Below, piece after piece: positions 25,691 to 35,254 of a stretch of 64,000 nucleotides of DNA. Positions within the stretch are counted from its first letter, which is position 1, and every line of letters begins with the position of its first letter. Both the position numbers and the translations under genes were made by a program. Source of the stretch: Hydrogenovibrio kuenenii DSM 12350 (GTDB lineage Bacteria > Pseudomonadota > Gammaproteobacteria > Thiomicrospirales > Thiomicrospiraceae); contig NZ_JAGP01000001.1 of the NCBI RefSeq assembly GCF_000526715.1, positions 62,001 through 126,000 of the forward strand, in the 5' to 3' direction. The notes beneath the pieces were generated by a model that saw only the letters and a list, made by a program, of their open reading frames with translations, ran no database searches and was not told the DNA's origin.

Positions 25691-25971
25691 GTTGTTTCCT
25701 CAGAGTTTCTGTGCATTTATTATACGTTTTTGAATTAATTTGTTATCGACATTAGGCTAATGTATTCTATGTTTAAAGCGTTGTTGATTGAATTCGCAAG
25801 GATTTTTACCATGCATTAAAGTATTATTAAATTCTTAAATAATGTTTATTTATCTAGGTAAGGTTTTTTTGAATTGTTGTACAGGCCCAAGCCCTTTAAG
25901 ATAGGCCCCGTAAAGATAAATATAAAATATTAGATAAAAGTAAATATAGATTTTTGACCGGAGACAAATTT
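25691..25971. other. Intergenic region between divergent genes
   Basis: This 281-base AT-rich gap must hold the promoters of the minus-strand carbonic anhydrase-like gene and the plus-strand PilZ gene. No clear sigma-70 pair, hairpin or small gene was recognised. Confidence 0.4.
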
Positions 25972-26346
25972 ATGGATTCAATGATTTCGAAGGAAGGCAA
26001 TTCACCTTATTCCAAATTATCATTGGAGCAGGCTGAAAAAAGGCGTACGATTCGTGTAGCCTCAAACCGCCCAGTTGTAATGAAAGTCAATGAATCTACC
26101 GTTTTCGCAACTATGACAGACTTCTCTAAGCATGGTTTGGGTTTTATCGCCATGTATCAAGTTGACCCTAATGATACGGTTGAAGTGCATTTCGACATTC
26201 CGGTTAAAAACGGATTCAAAAGTTTTTTATTTTCCGCTCAGGTGAAACACTGTATAGACTTGTTCGATAAAAACCATATTGGTGTTCGATTAAATATTGA
26301 CGAAAATGAATATAGTCAATTGTTTGATAGAATCATCGCAAGTTAA
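25972..26346 (+). CDS. PilZ-domain protein
   Basis: A 124-residue protein with a single PilZ domain. RRTIRVASNRPV near residue 20 fits the RxxxR c-di-GMP-binding motif only loosely, while the second motif (TDFSKHGLGFI near residue 50) matches the D/NxSxxG box. It could bind c-di-GMP, but the first motif should be tested. ATG 25972 follows GGAG at 25960-25963; an in-frame TTG at 25954 is less likely. It precedes the T11SS-like cluster by 180 bases with a separate promoter in between, so it is not necessarily part of that operon. Confidence 0.85.
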   Translation: MDSMISKEGNSPYSKLSLEQAEKRRTIRVASNRPVVMKVNESTVFATMTDFSKHGLGFIAMYQVDPNDTVEVHFDIPVKNGFKSFLFSAQVKHCIDLFDKNHIGVRLNIDENEYSQLFDRIIAS

Positions 26347-26525: not shown

Positions 26526-27857
26526 ATGAAGAAAATATCTTTCTATCTCTTCTGCATTTGTTTGTTTTCATCTTTTAAGGTATTGGCGGCAGTAGATTTT
26601 AAATCCGCTCTTCAACTCTATAAAGATAAGCAATATCAAGCGTCCTATGAAGCATTTATGGCGCTTGCAGATACTGATTATACTAATGTTGATTACAATT
26701 ATTATTTGGCGCGTTCTGCTTTTTTCGTAAAGCATTACAATGAAGCCATTGCAGCTTATGAGCGTGTTTTGATTATGTATCCCAATAATGCGCGTTCAAA
26801 GCTGGAATTAGGCCGAACCTATTATAAAATGCATCGTTATACTGAAGCGCGCAAGTATTTAAATGAAGTCTTGAAGTCCAGCGCCCCTCAGGTTGTTAAA
26901 AATAACATTCGCTACTATCTGGCTCGTATGACTGAAGATGGTAAAAAACCTAAGCGTAATACGGTCAAAGCTACCTTGCTTGGTTCTGTGTTCTATGATT
27001 CCAATCTGAACTACTCTCCCGAATCAGATCAAATGACATTGCCGTCCGGCACTCTAACCTCCTCAGCGGATATAGGTGCATGGGGAAGTGAGCAAATGTT
27101 GCTTGTAAACCATCGTTATGAAAATCCCGATAAGTATGATTTTGCATGGAAAAATGATGCGGTTCTTTACAACAAAGTTTCTCCGGGGAACAGTGAATAC
27201 AACATTTTATACGGCAGTTATTCACCAGCGCTATCATTTCAGAAAGATCGTTGGACGCTTGATGCTGGCGTATCAGTCGATGGTATGAAATACGGTAAAG
27301 ACCCTTATATGGTTTCTTATGGGTTGACGCCTAAGGCAGTCTATATTCCAAACATGACTGAATATATTTCAACGCAGCTAAAGTTGTTGAAACGTGATTA
27401 TCAGACGAGCAGTACGAAAGCAAAAAATTCAAAATTTGTGCAATTGACTGTTTTGTATCAAAAAAGAATGGGGCCTGTTTTTTCTTGGTTTGGACAAGGA
27501 ACGCTTGAAACCGAACTTAAGGATAAAACGCCAACGACAATTGTTAATGTTGATTATCAACTTTTGGGCTTAAAAGTGGGGGCAGGATATTTGCTCCCTA
27601 AAAATATTAGTTTGTCAGGTTCACTAGGCTATCAGTCAAAGCAATTTTTGGACAATGACCGTTTGTTGAAATACTTTAATGCACCGTCTAAAAAAGAACA
27701 TGATAATCGCTACTATGCCGAATTGGTTTTGGCAAAAGAGTTAGATAAAAACTTTACTGCACAGTTTAGAGCTAGCCGAGTACAAAATGACTCAAACATC
27801 TCTGTCTATAAATATCAGAAAAACCTTTACACTTTTAATATCCTGAAGCGTTTTTAG
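26526..27857 (+). CDS. Slam/T11SS-like outer-membrane protein, copy 1
   Basis: A 443-residue protein with a Sec signal ending around residue 21 (VLA). The periplasmic part (about 25-150) has TPR repeats (ALQLYKDKQYQASYEAF, HYNEAIAAYERVLIMYPNNA, RYTEARKYLNEVL). From about residue 155 a beta-barrel begins with FYDSNLNYSP, as in DUF560 surface lipoprotein assembly modulators, and the chain ends in phenylalanine as outer-membrane barrels do. Family members translocate cargo carrying a TbpB-like barrel across the outer membrane (type XI secretion). The next gene, 12 bases downstream, encodes such a putative cargo. It is a close paralogue of 29172-30536. Confidence 0.82.
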   Translation: MKKISFYLFCICLFSSFKVLAAVDFKSALQLYKDKQYQASYEAFMALADTDYTNVDYNYYLARSAFFVKHYNEAIAAYERVLIMYPNNARSKLELGRTYYKMHRYTEARKYLNEVLKSSAPQVVKNNIRYYLARMTEDGKKPKRNTVKATLLGSVFYDSNLNYSPESDQMTLPSGTLTSSADIGAWGSEQMLLVNHRYENPDKYDFAWKNDAVLYNKVSPGNSEYNILYGSYSPALSFQKDRWTLDAGVSVDGMKYGKDPYMVSYGLTPKAVYIPNMTEYISTQLKLLKRDYQTSSTKAKNSKFVQLTVLYQKRMGPVFSWFGQGTLETELKDKTPTTIVNVDYQLLGLKVGAGYLLPKNISLSGSLGYQSKQFLDNDRLLKYFNAPSKKEHDNRYYAELVLAKELDKNFTAQFRASRVQNDSNISVYKYQKNLYTFNILKRF

Positions 27858-27869
27858 GGAGTGGGTGAC

Positions 27870-29135
27870 ATGTTAAGAAGTATGATTTTTGTTTTGACCA
27901 TGTTGTTTGCCATTCAAGCGTTTGCAGCCATTGGAAAAGTTGCTGCCGTAAGGGGCGATGCCCACTTTTTGAGAGATAATCAACTTTTGGTTATGAAAGT
28001 TGGCGATGCTGTTGAAGAAAAAGACCAAATTAAAACGGGTGTAAATACAAAAGTACAAATTGTTTTTAGTGACCGTACGATTGTGACTATCGGTAAGAAT
28101 ACTGATTTCTCGATTCCACAGTATGTTTATGGTAATGCGGCTACCTCAAAGGCTCAGTTTAATCTTGCCAAAGGTGTTTTTAAGTCTATTTCGGGAAAAA
28201 TCGGTAAGCTTGCGCCGCAAAGATTCAAGATAAAAACTAAAACCTCAACCATTGGTATTCGAGGAACAACCTATATTGTTCGTGTAATTGGTTCTGAAAC
28301 AAGCTTAGCTACTTTAAATGGTGCAACCTATATGGAACTCAATAGTGGAAAAACCTATGACGTTCCAGCTGGTAAAGAGCTCGTCTATAACGTAGATACA
28401 GGGCAAGTGACAATACAAAATATTTCGACAACGTCGGTTTCGATTGATTCTCAAACGTCTGATGGTAAAAAAACTGAGACTGCGGAAAACGGTAGTAATG
28501 ATTCGGATGAAGCCACTTCAACGGTTGCAACCACTGTTTCTTCAACTGAAAATACATCACAGAATGTGGATACGAATAGTGTTAAAACAGATAGTACAAC
28601 AGTTAAAGTTGTTGCGGGTTCAGATACTTATAGCTCTTATGGTTATTGGTTAAATCAAACAACACAAGAAAAAACGGATCCATACACTGAGGCTAAAACT
28701 GGTTATGCTGCGACGACGCCATCAGTATTAAGTAGTGTTATTACTGGGCAGTCATCCTTAAGGTACGCTGGTAATTTGGTAGCAATATCGGGAACCAGTA
28801 ACGTCTCAGGGAATGTAACCATGGATGTTTCGTATGGACAGATTTCATCTGGGAACCTTCAGTTTACTTTGAATGGTGATGCTTGGAATTTCTCTTTTTC
28901 TAATGCGACCATTAATACTAATCAAAACACGGACACGGGTTATTCGTTTAGTACAACTTCTCTTACAGATGGGGTCACTGGTAGTGACTTTCCTGATACC
29001 TACTCCGGTACTGTGAAAGGAAGGTTTTATGGTCCGAATGCAGAAGGGGTTGGTGGTATATTTGATGTAAATAGAACGCCAAATTCTGGTGGAACGGCGA
29101 GCAATGCTAAGGGGTCTTTTAGTGCTGTTAAATAA
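27870..29135 (+). CDS. FecR-domain protein with TbpB-like C-terminal barrel, copy 1
   Basis: A 421-residue exported protein. The signal peptide ends near residue 19 (QAFA) with no lipobox cysteine. A FecR-like domain spans about 40-140 (VGDAVEEKDQIKTG, then STIGIRGTTYIVRV). A Ser/Thr-rich linker (190-250) leads to a beta-rich C-terminal domain (about 265-421). Its YAGNLVAISG start and GRFYGPNAEGVGGIF signature resemble the TbpB-type barrel of T11SS cargo. It is therefore predicted to be the cargo of the preceding barrel protein. ATG 27870 follows GGGAGTGGG; a GTG at 27861 is in frame. Not a classical FecR anti-sigma regulator: no sigma gene or membrane anchor. Confidence 0.75.
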   Translation: MLRSMIFVLTMLFAIQAFAAIGKVAAVRGDAHFLRDNQLLVMKVGDAVEEKDQIKTGVNTKVQIVFSDRTIVTIGKNTDFSIPQYVYGNAATSKAQFNLAKGVFKSISGKIGKLAPQRFKIKTKTSTIGIRGTTYIVRVIGSETSLATLNGATYMELNSGKTYDVPAGKELVYNVDTGQVTIQNISTTSVSIDSQTSDGKKTETAENGSNDSDEATSTVATTVSSTENTSQNVDTNSVKTDSTTVKVVAGSDTYSSYGYWLNQTTQEKTDPYTEAKTGYAATTPSVLSSVITGQSSLRYAGNLVAISGTSNVSGNVTMDVSYGQISSGNLQFTLNGDAWNFSFSNATINTNQNTDTGYSFSTTSLTDGVTGSDFPDTYSGTVKGRFYGPNAEGVGGIFDVNRTPNSGGTASNAKGSFSAVK

Positions 29136-29171
29136 GGTGCTAGCAGATAATGGTAGGATAACGGAATAGGT

Positions 29172-30536
29172 ATGAATTTTAAGAAAGCAACGGCGATTTT
29201 AGCGGTTATATTTTGCTCGATAATTTCAACTTCACTAAAGGCACAAGACCAACAAGCATCTGTCGATAGACCGGAAGTTAATTACCCTCAAGCATTAGCG
29301 TTATACAAACAAAAAAACTACCAGGCTGCCTATCAGGCATTTTTACAGTTAGTTTCAACTGATTATGGCAATGTTAATTACAACTACTATCTAGGCCGTT
29401 CGGCATTTTTTGTTAAAGACTATCATGAGTCAATTGCCGCCTATGAACGTATTTTGATTAGTTACCCATATAACCAGCGTGCCAAATTGGAGTTAGGGCG
29501 TTTGTATTATGAACAGGGAGATTTTGTTCAATCCAGGCGTTACTTAACGGAAATTTTGAATTCAAATGCACCGCAAACAGTAAAAAATAATATCCGTGTG
29601 TATTTGGCGAGAATGAATGCGATAGATAATAAGCCTCATAATACTCTTAGAGGCACTCTGTTAGGTTCGGCATTTTATGATTCCAATCTAAATTATTCGC
29701 CGCAATCTGATAGTTTTCAGCTGCCTTCAGGGAAGCTTAATTTTCCTTCTGACATTGGTGCTTGGGGAAGTGAGCAAATGTTGATGCTAAACCATCGTTA
29801 TGATAATCCTAAGAAGTTTGGTTTTGCCATTAAAAATGACATTACGCTTTATAATCGCTGGCTTCCTAACCATTCGGATTACAACATTTTATACGGTAGT
29901 TATATGCCGGCGCTATCATGGCATAAACATGGTTGGACAACAGATGCCGCACTCTATTTTGACGATATGAGTTATGGCAAAAACCCTTATATGATGTCTT
30001 ACGGCATAGCGCCATCTGTCAGTTATATGCCTAATCTGACACAGAATATTTCGGCTCAGTTGAAGTTTATAAACAAAGATTATCAACAATCCGTCTACAA
30101 AGATCGTAATGCGCAATTCACTCAGTTGGCTGTGTTGTATCAGAAACGAGAGGGCGCTTTATGGAGCTGGTATGGACAAGGTGTGTATGAAATGGAACAA
30201 AAACAACGTACTTCCACATCGGTAAATGTTGATTATCAAGCGATAACCGCTCGTGCGGGAGTAAACTACATGTTTCAAAAGAATTTAAGTTTAGGTCTAG
30301 CAGGTGAATATCAACAGAAAAGTTATTCTGAAAATGATTTTTGGCTAAAAAGTCTAAGCGGGCTAAGCAAGCATCAAGTTAATAATAAGATGGCTTTAAC
30401 TGCAATGGTAACAAAGAATTTCCAGAAAACTTTGTCAGCACAGTTGAAGCTATCTGTTATAAAAAATAACTCCAATATTAAAATTTATGAATATCAGAAA
30501 AACGCTTTGACGTTAAATCTGATAAAACGTTTTTAA
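29172..30536 (+). CDS. Slam/T11SS-like outer-membrane protein, copy 2
   Basis: A 454-residue paralogue of 26526-27857 with the same layout: signal peptide (about 1-25), TPR repeats (about 35-155), and a barrel starting FYDSNLNYSP and ending LKRF-type (LIKRF). Long blocks are shared, for example DIGAWGSEQML, YNILYGSY and SYG-P, so the two arose by tandem duplication. It begins 36 bases after the first FecR-type gene and is followed 11 bases later by a second. Divergence is largest at the N-terminal signal and between barrel strands, as expected for surface loops. Confidence 0.82.
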   Translation: MNFKKATAILAVIFCSIISTSLKAQDQQASVDRPEVNYPQALALYKQKNYQAAYQAFLQLVSTDYGNVNYNYYLGRSAFFVKDYHESIAAYERILISYPYNQRAKLELGRLYYEQGDFVQSRRYLTEILNSNAPQTVKNNIRVYLARMNAIDNKPHNTLRGTLLGSAFYDSNLNYSPQSDSFQLPSGKLNFPSDIGAWGSEQMLMLNHRYDNPKKFGFAIKNDITLYNRWLPNHSDYNILYGSYMPALSWHKHGWTTDAALYFDDMSYGKNPYMMSYGIAPSVSYMPNLTQNISAQLKFINKDYQQSVYKDRNAQFTQLAVLYQKREGALWSWYGQGVYEMEQKQRTSTSVNVDYQAITARAGVNYMFQKNLSLGLAGEYQQKSYSENDFWLKSLSGLSKHQVNNKMALTAMVTKNFQKTLSAQLKLSVIKNNSNIKIYEYQKNALTLNLIKRF

Positions 30537-30547
30537 AGGAAAGGCAA

Positions 30548-31894
30548 ATGGTCACACGTATTTTATTGATCGTTTTACTGGTTGTGTCAAGCCAAGCGTA
30601 TGCCTCTATTGCAACGGTAGCTGCCATTAAAGGAGAAGCGAATATTTTGAGGGCGGATCAAAAGTTGCCGGTCCATATGGGCGATGCTCTCGAGGAAAAA
30701 GATCAGATCAAAACGGGACCTAATACTAAAGTACAACTTATCTTTAAAGATAGAACCATTGTTACCATTGGTAAAAACACACTCTTTTCTATACCGCAAT
30801 ATGTCTATGGTGATGCTAAAACCTCAAAAGTACAGTTCCACCTTTCTAAAGGCGTGTTTAAGTCGATGACAGGTAAAATCGGCGCAATAGCTAAGCAGCG
30901 TTTTAAGATCAAAACCGCTACTGCAACCATTGGTATTCGAGGGACAATTTACATTGTTCGTGTCAATGGCGATAAAACACAGCTTTCGACATTGGACGGT
31001 GCAACCTATATGCAACTGAATTCAAATGGAAAGGTTTACGATGTGCCGGCAGGTAAATCTTTAAAATATGATGCAAAAACAGGGCGTGTGAGCTTACAAA
31101 ACCTGACCATTAAGACTGTAATGATTCAAAAAGATCCACCGCAGTCGGACAAAGAGCAGTTGGAAGATGCAATTCAAGCTCAAACGGATGATTCTGGTGG
31201 CGCTCAAGCAGGGCATGACTCATTGCTGCTTAATGTTGGGAATGTAAAGACAGATGATGACAATTCAGGTGATGTTCAATTGGAGAGTCAGACTAATGAT
31301 AGCAGTATTAATTCCATCGTATTAAGTCAAACAAATTTGCCCGCAGGAACCGATGAACAAATAAATCAGACGACTATCTCTATTCCTTATCAGGTAGTAG
31401 CAGGTCAAGACAATTATAATGAGTATGGTTATTGGGCAGATAAAAATTCGGCGCAGTTAACGACGCCTTTTACGAATCCATTGTCCGGTATTTCACAAAC
31501 TCCAGCAGCAAGTATTGATGGCTTTAGCGGTAGCGCCGCTTATACTGGTAATTTAGTAGCCATTTCAGGTACTGAGCACACGACAGGATCAATTTTGATG
31601 CAAGTGGATTTTGGTACTAAGGCTGTAAGCGGCGCACTCAACGATCTGACCATTAATGGTAATAAGTGGGATAACAATTTTACAGGTAGCCTATCATCCT
31701 CAGGGATTAGTGTGACGCATTTTACGCCTAAAAATACCCCAAGCATGTCGAGTATTTCCGGCAGCCTAAACGGGCAATTGTATGGTAATAATGCACAAGG
31801 CGTTGCCGGAACATTTAATCTTTCTGGCACCAAAATTTCTGGAGGGTCGGCTAGTGTATCCGGCTCCTATGCCGCAAAAGGTGACGGTCCTTAG
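30548..31894 (+). CDS. FecR-domain protein with TbpB-like C-terminal barrel, copy 2
   Basis: A 448-residue paralogue of the first FecR-type protein. The signal peptide ends near residue 19 (AYA), again without a lipobox. The FecR-like domain (about 35-140) keeps MGDALEEKDQIKTG and ATIGIRGTIYIVRV. A Gln/Asp/Ser-rich linker (about 195-275) separates it from the C-terminal barrel-like domain (about 320-448), with YTGNLVAISG and GQLYGNNAQGVAGTF. The linker differs greatly from copy 1 while both end domains are conserved. It is predicted to be cargo of the preceding outer-membrane protein and is followed 22 bases later by the cyclase gene. Confidence 0.75.
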   Translation: MVTRILLIVLLVVSSQAYASIATVAAIKGEANILRADQKLPVHMGDALEEKDQIKTGPNTKVQLIFKDRTIVTIGKNTLFSIPQYVYGDAKTSKVQFHLSKGVFKSMTGKIGAIAKQRFKIKTATATIGIRGTIYIVRVNGDKTQLSTLDGATYMQLNSNGKVYDVPAGKSLKYDAKTGRVSLQNLTIKTVMIQKDPPQSDKEQLEDAIQAQTDDSGGAQAGHDSLLLNVGNVKTDDDNSGDVQLESQTNDSSINSIVLSQTNLPAGTDEQINQTTISIPYQVVAGQDNYNEYGYWADKNSAQLTTPFTNPLSGISQTPAASIDGFSGSAAYTGNLVAISGTEHTTGSILMQVDFGTKAVSGALNDLTINGNKWDNNFTGSLSSSGISVTHFTPKNTPSMSSISGSLNGQLYGNNAQGVAGTFNLSGTKISGGSASVSGSYAAKGDGP

Positions 31895-31916: not shown

Positions 31917-34121
31917 ATGACAAGACTCGGCAAATGGAAAATTTTTACCCATTTTAGTGTCATAGCTTTAGGGTTGACCATTCTTTTGGGAGGATACCTG
32001 TTTATTCCTCAAGCCTTTCTTTCGTTGGACAATCGTTTAAGAGATTTCCTATTTTTAGCACGCGGCCCTATTCCTACTACAGGCCAAGTGGTGATTGTTG
32101 ACTTGGATGATGCCAGTTTAAAAAAGTATGGTCAATGGCCGTGGAGTCGCGATTTGTTTGCCAAACTTTTACAAAAATTGGCAAATGACGGTGCGGGGAT
32201 TGTAGGGCTAGATATTGTTTTCTCTGAAGCTGATAGAACATCTCCAGCGCGCCTAGCAAAGCGCTATCACTTTCCAGATAAAAATTTACCCGATTTTGAT
32301 CAAGTCATGGCTAAGACCTTGGCGCAAACCCCGACGATTTTGGGGTATGTGTTTCAAATGAACACACCTACACCTGGAGCAGATGCACCTAATATTCCCG
32401 CCATTTTTATTGAAAGGGGCTTTTCGAAAAATACCGATGTGCTAAAGCCAGAAGGTGTGCTTGCCAATATTCCAATATTGCAGAATTCTGCCTATAGCAG
32501 TGGCTTCTTTAATAACGTGCCTGATGAATCGGGTATGGTGCGGAGTGTTCCGTTAGTAATGAAGTATGATGGCATGATTTATCCTTCGCTATCATTAGAA
32601 ATGATTCGAATCGCAACGCAAGTCAATAAAGTCTATGTAAACTATTCGGACTTGGGAGTTGAGTCGATTCAGCTGGGTAAGATGTTTATCCCAACAGATC
32701 CTGGTGGTCGCTTGTTTGTGAACTATCGTGGTCCAGGGCATACCTTTCATTACATCAGTGCAGCAAAAGTTCTTGAAAATAAAGTCGACCCTAAAGAACT
32801 GGAAGGCAAATTCATTTTAATCGGAACCTCAGCGGCCGGGCTATTGGATTTGCGGTCGATGCCTTTTGATAATGTTTACCCTGGTGTGGAAGCTCACGCA
32901 AATGTTATAGATAATATTCTAAAAGGCGATTTCCTAACACGCCCGAGCTGGATTATCGCTGCTGACATGCTTGTTATCAGTGTCACTTTTCTGTTGTCTT
33001 ATTTATTGTTGATTCGTTTGAATGCCCTTTGGGCATTTACTATTTTTCTTGCGGAAGCAGTAGGCCTTTACTATTTCTATTTTCATATGCTGTTTACCGA
33101 AGGTATAGTGTTCAATATCTTGTTCGGTGTATTCGCATTAGTCGCAGCATTCTTCTTCTCGTTACTGGTCAACTTCTTCTTCGAAACACGTCAAAAAATG
33201 ATGTTGAGAGGCAAGCTTTCAAGCAAAGTCAGCCCAGCAGTTATGGAAGAAATCTTAAAAAATGAAGCTGGCAATGTAATGGAAGGCGATACGCGTGAAG
33301 TCACCATCTTTTTCTCTGATGTGCGTAACTTCACCAATATTTCTGAAGCTCTCTCTAATCCGCAAACGCTCATTCACTTTTTGAATGAGTATATGGAACC
33401 AATGACGGACGTAATCGTCCATGCAGAAGGAACTGTAGATAAATTCATCGGTGATGCCATTATGGCTTATTGGAATGCTCCGATAGACGTAAAAGATCAT
33501 GCCGATAAAGCGGTAGCTGCAAGCTTGCGCCAAATCGCTATGTTAAAGGACATTAATGAAAAAATTCGTCAAGATGAGCGTTTTCAAGCCGTGGTCAAAA
33601 TGTCTGATGCGAACGGTGTGCCACCACTGGATATTGGCATAGGCTTGAATACTGGGCAAGCGATTGTGGGGGAAATGGGCTCTGCCGGGCGAAGTGACTA
33701 TACCGTTATTGGTGATGCAATTAACTTGGGATCTCGTTTAGAGTCTTTGTGTAAATTTTATAATTCGAAAGTCACTATTTCCAACTTCACCAAAGAACAA
33801 CTTAAACAAGACTATATCTTCCGTTTTCTAGATTTGGTTACAGTGAAAGGTAAAACAGAGCCAGTTGAAGTTTGGCAAGTCCATGACTTTGGTCAAGCAG
33901 AAGGGCGAATGAAAGAAGAACTGGACAAGCACCATCATGCGATTGCACTATATAAACAAGCGAAGTTTGTTGAGGCAATAGATATGCTTAAAGACCTGGA
34001 AAGCTGGCCGGATAAAACCAATCAAAATATCTATAAGATTTATATAGAGCGTTGTGAGCACTATATTGAAGAGCCACCAGAAGACTTTAATGGCGTATTC
34101 ATACATAAAACCAAAGGCTAG
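31917..34121 (+). CDS. CHASE2-domain adenylate cyclase
   Basis: A 734-residue membrane receptor. An N-terminal segment (about 13-32) leads to a periplasmic CHASE2 domain (about 35-345), then three membrane segments (about 346-425) and a cytoplasmic class III cyclase (about 455-650). Metal aspartates are Asp468 (FFSDVRNFT) and Asp513 (FIGDAIMAYW). Lys509 and the aspartate of SDYTVIGDA fit adenine specificity, so cAMP is the likely product. A C-terminal TPR-like tail (680-730) follows. It is the last gene of the T11SS/FecR cluster; the periplasmic sensor could monitor the exported FecR proteins, which is an inference. Confidence 0.9.
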   Translation: MTRLGKWKIFTHFSVIALGLTILLGGYLFIPQAFLSLDNRLRDFLFLARGPIPTTGQVVIVDLDDASLKKYGQWPWSRDLFAKLLQKLANDGAGIVGLDIVFSEADRTSPARLAKRYHFPDKNLPDFDQVMAKTLAQTPTILGYVFQMNTPTPGADAPNIPAIFIERGFSKNTDVLKPEGVLANIPILQNSAYSSGFFNNVPDESGMVRSVPLVMKYDGMIYPSLSLEMIRIATQVNKVYVNYSDLGVESIQLGKMFIPTDPGGRLFVNYRGPGHTFHYISAAKVLENKVDPKELEGKFILIGTSAAGLLDLRSMPFDNVYPGVEAHANVIDNILKGDFLTRPSWIIAADMLVISVTFLLSYLLLIRLNALWAFTIFLAEAVGLYYFYFHMLFTEGIVFNILFGVFALVAAFFFSLLVNFFFETRQKMMLRGKLSSKVSPAVMEEILKNEAGNVMEGDTREVTIFFSDVRNFTNISEALSNPQTLIHFLNEYMEPMTDVIVHAEGTVDKFIGDAIMAYWNAPIDVKDHADKAVAASLRQIAMLKDINEKIRQDERFQAVVKMSDANGVPPLDIGIGLNTGQAIVGEMGSAGRSDYTVIGDAINLGSRLESLCKFYNSKVTISNFTKEQLKQDYIFRFLDLVTVKGKTEPVEVWQVHDFGQAEGRMKEELDKHHHAIALYKQAKFVEAIDMLKDLESWPDKTNQNIYKIYIERCEHYIEEPPEDFNGVFIHKTKG

Positions 34122-34198: not shown

Positions 34199-35254
34199 CT
34201 AATCCTGAATCTTGTCCCGAATCGCTAGGAATTCATCGAGGTGCTGAAAGAAAAGATCAATCATTTTAGGCTCAAAGCTTTTACCGCTTTCTTCTTTGAA
34301 ATAATCCAGAATCTGTTCCAACGGCCAAGCGGCTTTATAAACGCGATCATTGCCCAAGGCATCAAACACATCCGCTACGGCACAAATGCGACCACAGACA
34401 TCAATGTCCTCTTCTTTCAGTCCTTGAGGGTAGCCCGTACCATTCCATTTTTCATGATGTTGATAAGCGATGCTAGCCGCCACTTGAAGGATTGATCGTG
34501 TGGAACCTTTTAGGATGTCATAACCTTTTTGGGCATGGGTTTCCATAATGGCTCTTTCTTCAATGGTAAGTGGTCCGGGTTTGTTCAGAATCTGGTCAGG
34601 TATGGCGACTTTGCCAATATCATGCATGGGCGCCGCCTTACGAATCAGTTCGCATGTCTTTGCATCAATACCATATAATTTAGCCAGTAAATAAGCGTAT
34701 TCCGCTACACGAACGACGTGCTGCCCAGCTTCATTGGAGCGTTCTTCAATCGTAGAGCCGAGCATAGTGATAATTTCACCCTGGGTCGCTTCCAGCTCCT
34801 GGTTCAGGGTTCTGATTTCCTGAACTCCTTCCTCTATCTTATGCTTAAGGTGCTGTTGATAGTCATGAAGTTGAAGGTGGGTTCGGACTCTGGCAATGAC
34901 TTCCTCGTTGGCAAAAGGTTTTGTCATGTAGTCCTGTCCGCCAGCACGAAAAGCGTTCAATTTGTCTTCTGTTTCATTCATCGCGCTGATGAAAATGATC
35001 GGGATAGCTTGTGTTTCCGGTGCTGACTTTAAGTGTTTGCTTACTTCAAACCCGTTCATTCCGGGCATTTTAATATCAAGTAAAATAAGATCAGGCGTTT
35101 TCAACGCAATAGACTGCAAAGCCATTTCGCCGTTGATGGCGGCACGTACCTGGTAGCCCTGTTCTTCAAGAATTTCAGCTAAAAGCTTAACGTTGGCTGT
35201 TGTATCGTCAACCACTAAGACTTCATGTTTGGAAGGATCAAATAAATCAGCCAC
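34199..35254 (-). CDS. Response regulator with HD-GYP phosphodiesterase domain
   Basis: A 351-residue protein: REC domain (1-125, phospho-acceptor Asp60 in LILLDIKMPG), a coiled-coil linker (about 130-165) and an HD-GYP domain (about 170-345). The HD pair is at 211-212 (MHDIGKVAIPD) and the GYP motif at about 266-276 (HHEKWNGTGYP), so both metal and specificity motifs are intact. It should hydrolyse c-di-GMP when phosphorylated. The start is GTG 35254 with AAAGGATGG upstream. It is the third gene of a minus-strand run after the PhnD-like protein and the hybrid kinase, its likely phosphate donor. Confidence 0.92.
   Translation of the reverse strand: MADLFDPSKHEVLVVDDTTANVKLLAEILEEQGYQVRAAINGEMALQSIALKTPDLILLDIKMPGMNGFEVSKHLKSAPETQAIPIIFISAMNETEDKLNAFRAGGQDYMTKPFANEEVIARVRTHLQLHDYQQHLKHKIEEGVQEIRTLNQELEATQGEIITMLGSTIEERSNEAGQHVVRVAEYAYLLAKLYGIDAKTCELIRKAAPMHDIGKVAIPDQILNKPGPLTIEERAIMETHAQKGYDILKGSTRSILQVAASIAYQHHEKWNGTGYPQGLKEEDIDVCGRICAVADVFDALGNDRVYKAAWPLEQILDYFKEESGKSFEPKMIDLFFQHLDEFLAIRDKIQD

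Follow-up and report, generated by a model that had tools for sequence, protein, structure and literature searches.

Tandem DUF560 outer-membrane protein and FecR-barrel gene pairs beside a CHASE2 cyclase gene in Hydrogenovibrio kuenenii: a candidate trans-envelope signalling module

Overview of the proposed module

The 64-kb stretch of the Hydrogenovibrio kuenenii DSM 12350 genome analysed here (the window) carries five plus-strand genes in series: omp1, cargo1, omp2, cargo2 and a gene for a CHASE2-domain adenylate/guanylate cyclase. The first four form two tandem pairs (26526-31894), each consisting of a TPR and DUF560/SlipAM outer-membrane protein (OMP) followed by a FecR protein without a lipobox. 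What is directly observed comprises the domain content, the gene order, the recurrence of that order in other genomes and, as predictions, the folds of cargo2 and omp2. It is proposed, with what we regard as an even chance of being right, that the five genes constitute one trans-envelope cyclic AMP (or cyclic GMP) signalling module, in which the FecR domain is periplasmic and the C-terminal barrel of the same protein is displayed via the OMP. A sensor is preferred to a secretion system because of the company that the FecR, OMP and CHASE2 genes keep.

In the proposed mechanism, the TPR-DUF560 protein would reside in the outer membrane as a barrel of the Slam or type XI secretion system (T11SS) type, and a signal peptide would direct the FecR protein to the periplasm. 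The C-terminal TbpB-type barrel of the FecR protein would then be recognized and displayed, either through the OMP or at it, with the N-terminal FecR domain remaining periplasmic, tethered by a long, flexible linker. There the FecR domain would contact the CHASE2 sensor domain of the inner-membrane cyclase, and an outside ligand, or an alteration of the displayed barrel, would change this contact and with it cyclic nucleotide synthesis. We infer that the five genes are co-transcribed, that FecR is retained in the periplasm, that the barrel is displayed, that FecR contacts CHASE2, and that a ligand acts and a signal runs in the direction described.

The input of CHASE2 domains was called unknown in 2016 (PMC5192318). 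The locus offers the FecR domain as a physical candidate for this input and, as a candidate route from the surface, the DUF560 barrel together with a cargo-type barrel. If the proposal is true, part of a presumed secretion family is a receptor family, and a secretion-type channel has been turned, in a small and testable sulfur-bacterium operon, into the outer half of a surface sensor. A wider form of the proposal, which we hold tentatively and at less than an even chance, is that DUF560 barrels expose the C-terminal barrel of a FecR protein and nothing else of it, the N-terminal half being held in the periplasm, so that a single protein links the surface to a CHASE2 cyclase and its barrel is swapped between strains as a cassette, and that most weak SlipAM hits of the class are sensory rather than devoted to nutrient or adhesin secretion.

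Association of FecR, OMP and CHASE2 genes across genomes

CHASE2 was found in 28 of 62 host-family genomes, at 35 listed places. The window cyclase scores 213.6 bits for CHASE2 and 77.7 bits for Guanylate_cyc in Pfam, and 12 of the family places reach at least 208 bits for CHASE2. One of these (L257) begins inside the cyclase; the other 11, which have flanks (L249-L256, the window and the congeners G001 and G010), all possess both an OMP and a FecR gene, arranged as OMP-FecR-cyclase or FecR-OMP-cyclase (the FecR gene of L252 runs off the contig end). At the weaker CHASE2 places, 11 of 23 of which were examined (L258-L268), a full-length OMP was present in none and FecR in two. The order OMP-FecR-OMP-FecR-CHASE2 cyclase is common to the window, G001 and G010, and this kept gene order, with the recurrence across the host family, rules out chance or artefact as the source of the arrangement.

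The OMP-FecR pairing extends beyond the family. SlipAM matches (E <= 0.001) occur in 35 of 369 genomes of the class, the window's own included. Outside that genome, 28 of 30 weak-SlipAM places were examined (L037-L064, including three from one genome, G067, and L059, unrecognised by the OMP profile), together with 8 of 14 classical places (>=56 bits; L065-L072, L066 being just 3 kb); FecR genes were present at 22/28 of the former versus 0/8 of the latter. A scan of 84,980 species genomes with an alignment of FecR-barrel proteins confirmed at least 557 relatives, from which the best 80 named loci were taken. OMPs were counted only at 380-560 aa, because the OMP profile also matched TPR open reading frames (ORFs) of 969, 929 and 106 aa in control stretches. 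On this basis, and across all the loci gathered to that point, a complete same-strand FecR gene lies within 700 bases of 65 of 84 OMPs, downstream in 61 of the 65 pairs and at a median gap of 10 nt. Residues after the FecR domain number at least 150 in 49/65 of the paired partners and fewer than 150, too short for a barrel, in 16/65. The short-partner label changes six times on the OMP tree (a quick tree, weak at several forks), which argues that the barrel was lost or gained repeatedly while the OMP-FecR pairing stayed.

The link to CHASE2 likewise recurs. Of 24 genomes in which a DUF560 gene is paired with FecR, 23 also have a CHASE2 gene, G041 being the one without; within one class set the figures are 17/17 FecR-paired genomes versus 141/259 others, a listing count with a Fisher test that ignores relatedness. 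Nine Campylobacterota loci hold an OMP, FecR and a CHASE2 cyclase inside 4.5 kb, six of these loci having FecR proteins of just 213-273 aa. FecR-only proteins of 139-192 aa stand near CHASE2 without an OMP at L103, L108, L110, L115, L119, L120 and L124 (mostly delta-type). Among 60 CHASE2 loci from the upper part of the class listing, FecR is found within 3.5 kb of CHASE2 at 20 (12 of 49 cyclase loci and 8 of 11 others; five of the 60 overlap loci found through SlipAM, and four of these are among the 20), and an OMP-profile match lies within 6 kb at eight, six of the matched proteins being 445-498 aa long. Twenty arbitrarily placed 20-kb stretches (400 kb) contained neither FecR nor CHASE2 genes; a Fisher test set against an arbitrary 57 control windows is given no weight. 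The order of inference that results places FecR-CHASE2 as the widest association, the OMP next, and the cargo barrel as an optional outer part.

These data bear on the first alternative, ordinary T11SS export, in which the OMP would move the whole FecR-barrel protein out, FecR would be an effector or ligand domain, and the cyclase would merely regulate or be co-regulated. The combination of a DUF560 OMP with a cargo barrel of known fold is what such a system would have, a signal peptide without a lipobox is found in soluble haemophilins, and the N-terminal effector parts of T11SS cargo are described as variable (PMC12282271). Against this stand the persistence of the OMP-FecR pairing with short, barrel-less FecR partners, the adjacency of FecR to CHASE2 where the OMP is absent, and LysM-like N-termini in a few FecR partners (four FecR ORFs from three genomes, at loci L038, L044 and L056; Pfam LysM is below cut-off in the L038 protein and one L056 protein). 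For these same reasons FecR is more likely periplasmic, a trans-envelope relay seems likelier than secretion of FecR as cargo, and the exported FecR effector put forward in the preliminary description is weakened; we judge ordinary export unlikely. The relay is further supported by an FecR-less DUF560 pair in the same family (L006 in G033), where the OMP stands beside a 384-aa TbpB_B_D protein (28.9 bits) in a genome without a CHASE2 match.

Several variants of the operon were seen. Further module duplications in the same family read OMP-FecR-FecR-cyclase and OMP-FecR-OMP-FecR-cyclase (L253, L255). L264 and L268 carry a second type of FecR protein (~400 aa), which overlaps the CHASE2 cyclase gene and has no TbpB_B_D match; in L268 the next gene encodes a protein of 364 aa that matches TPR weakly. 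At L054 (G067:C1:1791500-1804000) the OMP, FecR, CHASE2 and cyclase are all in broken frames, as if decayed as a unit, and the same genome also has the OMP-FecR loci L053 and L055.

Domains and predicted folds

The analysis bears out the preliminary description in its tandem modules, their coordinates and gene order, the TPR plus DUF560-type barrel proteins, the N-terminal FecR-like domains and the missing lipobox. SlipAM/DUF560 scores are 26.4 bits in omp1 and 38.7 bits in omp2, both above the cut-off of 22, and TPR models are above cut-off in both (TPR_19 40.2 bits in omp1). The dedicated TPR_Slam model gives 19.3 and 10.5 bits, below its cut-off of 35.2 bits, and in the genome search the two window OMPs reach 28 and 39.8 bits for SlipAM versus 73-360 at the eight classical loci; the OMP of G004, from an operon of the same type, gave no SlipAM match at E <= 0.05. 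The AlphaFold2 model of omp2 (predicted local distance difference test score, pLDDT, 88.7) has seven helices past the signal peptide and, by our own count, 14 long strands. A periplasmic TPR domain with a 14-stranded outer-membrane barrel, the architecture of T11SS OMPs, is thus present as judged by the Pfam TPR matches and the predicted omp2 model.

The best solved-structure matches of omp2 in Foldseek are CymA, BcsC (9b8a, 9b8h, 6tzk), OmpG and porins. The BcsC entries suggest another alternative, a role in polysaccharide export for the TPR-barrel protein, as for BcsC or PgaA, with the FecR-barrel protein as an accessory. This is highly improbable, given SlipAM above cut-off in both OMPs, a partner with a cargo-type barrel, and no glycosyltransferase match in the seven genes scanned.

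In both cargo proteins the FecR domain (PF04773; 54.0 and 55.9 bits in cargo1 and cargo2, cut-off 24) directly follows a signal peptide of ~18 residues, and neither signal peptide contains a cysteine. The TbpB-type C-terminal barrel assigned to both in the preliminary description is upheld for cargo2, where TbpB_B_D scores 34.1 bits (cut-off 26); cargo1 scores 22.2 bits, below cut-off, and its C-terminal domain carries GRFYGPNAEGVGGIF. NCBIfam slam_lipo gives 25.4 and 34.4 bits in the two cargos, far under its cut-off of 80. The AlphaFold2 model of cargo2 has a mean pLDDT of 72.7, with the FecR half mostly above 90, residues 195-319 below 50, in agreement with the linker described earlier, and eight strands spanning 329-445 with block pLDDT of 79-95.

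With cargo2 as query, Foldseek placed the PupR cell-surface-signalling domain at the top (E 2.6e-6), followed by two entries for a putative anti-sigma factor and by NHBA (6.2e-6) and TbpB (4.4e-5). In VIA-align the FecR half matches PupR (6ovk) with Z 17.4 over model residues 49-196, and the barrel matches NHBA (Z 15.7 and 14.8), fHbp (<=14.8), Haemophilus parainfluenzae HphA (12.9) and TbpB (<=12.9). Ail, an outer-membrane protein that is no T11SS cargo, scores 12.5 against cargo2, so a Z near 12 carries little weight by itself; higher values were obtained for NHBA, fHbp, HphA and the top TbpB row, and not for the remaining TbpB rows. The fold is visible by structure only, phmmer of cargo2 against the PDB sequences having returned nothing at E <= 1. 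By its predicted model, cargo2 is a FecR/PupR-like domain, a linker and an eight-stranded barrel of the Slam/T11SS-cargo fold. The alignment behind the cargo2 model consisted of proteins from the window and the named loci. A custom barrel profile drifted on iteration and missed the window cargo2, and its counts were not used.

The resemblance of the FecR half to the PupR signalling domain supports the relay. In FecA/PupB-FecR/PupR systems the signal passes from an outer-membrane protein through the periplasm, and the signalling-domain fold is shared with cargo2. Unlike those systems, the partner here is a DUF560 barrel and the output a cyclase, and neither an anti-sigma domain nor a transmembrane helix other than the signal peptide was found ahead of FecR (Pfam; cargo2 model). 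FecR as a sigma-factor regulator is ruled out by the missing anti-sigma part.

Comparison with congeners and the cargo1 C-terminal domain

Between the window and the congeners, identity is 85-87% in FecR, 91% in CHASE2, 68-76% in the OMP barrels and 52-59% in the linkers; synonymous distances (dS) are mostly saturated, so no claim is made on dN/dS. The cargo2 C-terminal domain is 71-94% identical in all three comparisons among the window, G001 and G010. That of cargo1 is 82% identical between the window and G001, and G010 has 48-50% identity to either (48% to G001), while the OMP barrels of G010 and G001 are 93-94% identical (omp1 93%). At the nucleotide level, identity between G010 and G001 in 60-base bins falls to 41-58% in nine of the ten bins of 28686-29285, with 74% in one, versus 71-95% in the printed bins on either side; between the window and G001 the same ten bins have 58-87%.

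It looks from these sequences as if the cargo1 C-terminal domain of G010 has been exchanged, one case among three genomes. With the C-terminal domain at 48% and the omp1 barrels at 93% (G010 versus G001), OMP and C-terminal domain do not closely co-vary, which weakens the earlier suggestion of two partner-specific pairs. The pattern fits an outward, changeable C-terminal domain recognised by general features and is hard to square with tight partner specificity. The relay is supported by the contrast between well-kept FecR and CHASE2 domains and this apparent exchange in one genome.

A third alternative gives the OMP the role of a plain receptor or porin, with the FecR-barrel protein as its wholly periplasmic plug or lid; the ligand would free FecR for CHASE2, and there would be no export at all. 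The short FecR partners that accompany the OMP and cyclase in Campylobacterota would suit a plug, as would Sinorhizobium meliloti NsrA, an outer-membrane barrel protein needed for signalling by the CHASE2 cyclases CyaK/CyaD (PMC7529298, PMC13001267). The C-terminal domain shares its fold with surface-displayed cargo, however, and the apparent exchange in one congener suits an outward-facing part better; the plug arrangement is accordingly given quite a low probability.

Points against the sensor proposal, and further observations

A number of observations weigh against the sensor proposal. The DUF560 proteins with proven function are cargo exporters, and PMC12282271 puts the number of T11SS OMPs verified as exporters by 2025 at only seven, all from a single cluster. 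Pfam analysis of 44 chosen FecR proteins (named loci and window) recovered FecR in 44/44 and TbpB_B_D in just 10/44 at E <= 0.05; in 20 FecR partners from unnamed weak-SlipAM loci, FecR was matched in 20/20 and TbpB_B_D in 0/20 at E <= 1, many of these 20 having a similar C-terminus by eye. Evidence for the barrel is therefore limited to the sequences of part of the family and to the model of cargo2. LysM-like motifs occur in only 4 of ~119 FecR ORFs. As to CHASE2, 40 of the 60 sampled loci have no FecR inside 3.5 kb, 35 of the 49 OMP pairs whose FecR partner is long lack a CHASE2 cyclase inside 4.5 kb, and G041 (75% complete) has two FecR-OMP pairs and no CHASE2 match. CRP-type sites show no excess in the window (28 versus 33.4 expected from shuffles).

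At the high-scoring CHASE2 loci of the host family, TbpB_B_D matched all six FecR proteins scanned (20.8-32.5 bits; four above cut-off); the FecR proteins of L083 and L086 have 20.1 and 23.4 bits, below cut-off. One of the 44 FecR proteins, absent from the subset of ten that was rescanned, has additional matches to OMP_b-brl (4.2e-12) and OmpA_membrane, which would suit a fusion of FecR with an outer-membrane barrel. L153:7668-15656 encodes a protein of 2662 aa whose FecR domain is close to the N-terminus, and the classical SlipAM gene at G177:C1:131151-132033 reads as two neighbouring open frames.

Relation to known systems

The two pairs resemble T11SS/Slam systems (DUF560, SlipAM PF04575) in the TPR protein with a predicted 14-stranded barrel and in the adjacent partner, whose C-terminal eight-stranded barrel matches NHBA, fHbp, HphA and TbpB. 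They differ in that the partner has a FecR N-terminus, is not lipidated, adjoins a CHASE2 cyclase and is sometimes too short for a barrel, and in SlipAM scores far under those of classical members. FecR had been presented as new among T11SS cargo; the words 'FecR' and 'adenylate' are indeed absent from the main texts of the T11SS surveys PMC12282271 and PMC8406197, as is 'CHASE2' from that of PMC8406197, and it is the export reading behind that claim that has lost ground. Searches for T11SS with FecR, or for a FecR domain with TbpB, found no paper, supplements being outside the search, and FecR with 'surface lipoprotein assembly' returned PMC11233812 alone, which concerns a siderophore.

The closest precedent is a Campylobacterota cluster of a CHASE2 adenylate cyclase, a phosphodiesterase, a FecR-domain outer membrane protein and a TPR protein, for which PMC9239204 proposes one signal transduction pathway, with gene transfer. 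The gene neighbourhood is the same, and the cluster is very probably the same system as the window operon. The difference lies in the description: 'DUF560' is absent from the main text of PMC9239204, and its passages on the cluster neither assign the TPR protein to DUF560 nor give FecR a cargo barrel. No paper was found that links the FecR/TPR/CHASE2-cyclase cluster to DUF560 or cargo barrels, in a search outside of which lay the supplements, which may tabulate such an architecture.

In the Burkholderia BiofilmReg operon (PMC5192318), a LysM-FecR protein accompanies a CHASE2 histidine kinase; here too a FecR-domain protein predicted outside the cytoplasm stands beside a CHASE2 receptor, but the output is a kinase, and the main text contains neither 'outer membrane' nor 'TPR'. 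S. meliloti NsrA resembles the proposed module in the way it works, an outer-membrane protein feeding CHASE2 cyclases; it is unlike the present OMPs in being a single large protein whose barrel occupies 600-1200. A FecR protein is among the cAMP-regulated genes of S. meliloti (PMC5498481).

Locus layout and neighbouring genes

Table 1. Features of the five-gene locus (window coordinates).
Feature	Position	Strand	Description	Basis
omp1	26526..27857	+	443 aa; signal peptide, TPR helices, DUF560/SlipAM outer-membrane barrel	Pfam
cargo1	27861..29135	+	424 aa from GTG; signal peptide without lipobox, FecR domain, linker, C-terminal domain	Pfam
omp2	29172..30536	+	454 aa; TPR helices and predicted 14-stranded barrel	Pfam, AlphaFold2, Foldseek
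cargo2	30548..31894	+	448 aa; FecR ~20-190, disordered linker 195-319, predicted eight-stranded barrel 329-445	Pfam, AlphaFold2
CHASE2-domain adenylate/guanylate cyclase	31917..34121	+	734 aa	Pfam
Apparent exchanged segment in congener G010	28686..29285	+	cargo1 C-terminal domain to omp2 signal peptide	60-base identity bins

The intergenic gaps across the five-gene row are 3, 36, 11 and 22 nt; the first becomes 12 nt if cargo1 is taken to begin not at its GTG but at the ATG at 27870, which agrees with the starts in the congeners. The cyclase gene, which had gone unremarked in the preliminary description, probably belongs to the same operon, at 22 nt past cargo2. Promoter and terminator scans gave no more matches than shuffled sequence. 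Four genes of the H. kuenenii genome encode cyclic-nucleotide-binding domains, one FNR-like by eye and none tied to the operon; they may include a receptor for the cyclase product. A PilZ-domain gene (25954-26346) lies upstream of omp1, and the cyclase gene is followed by a minus-strand gene (34199-35254) for a response regulator with an HD domain.

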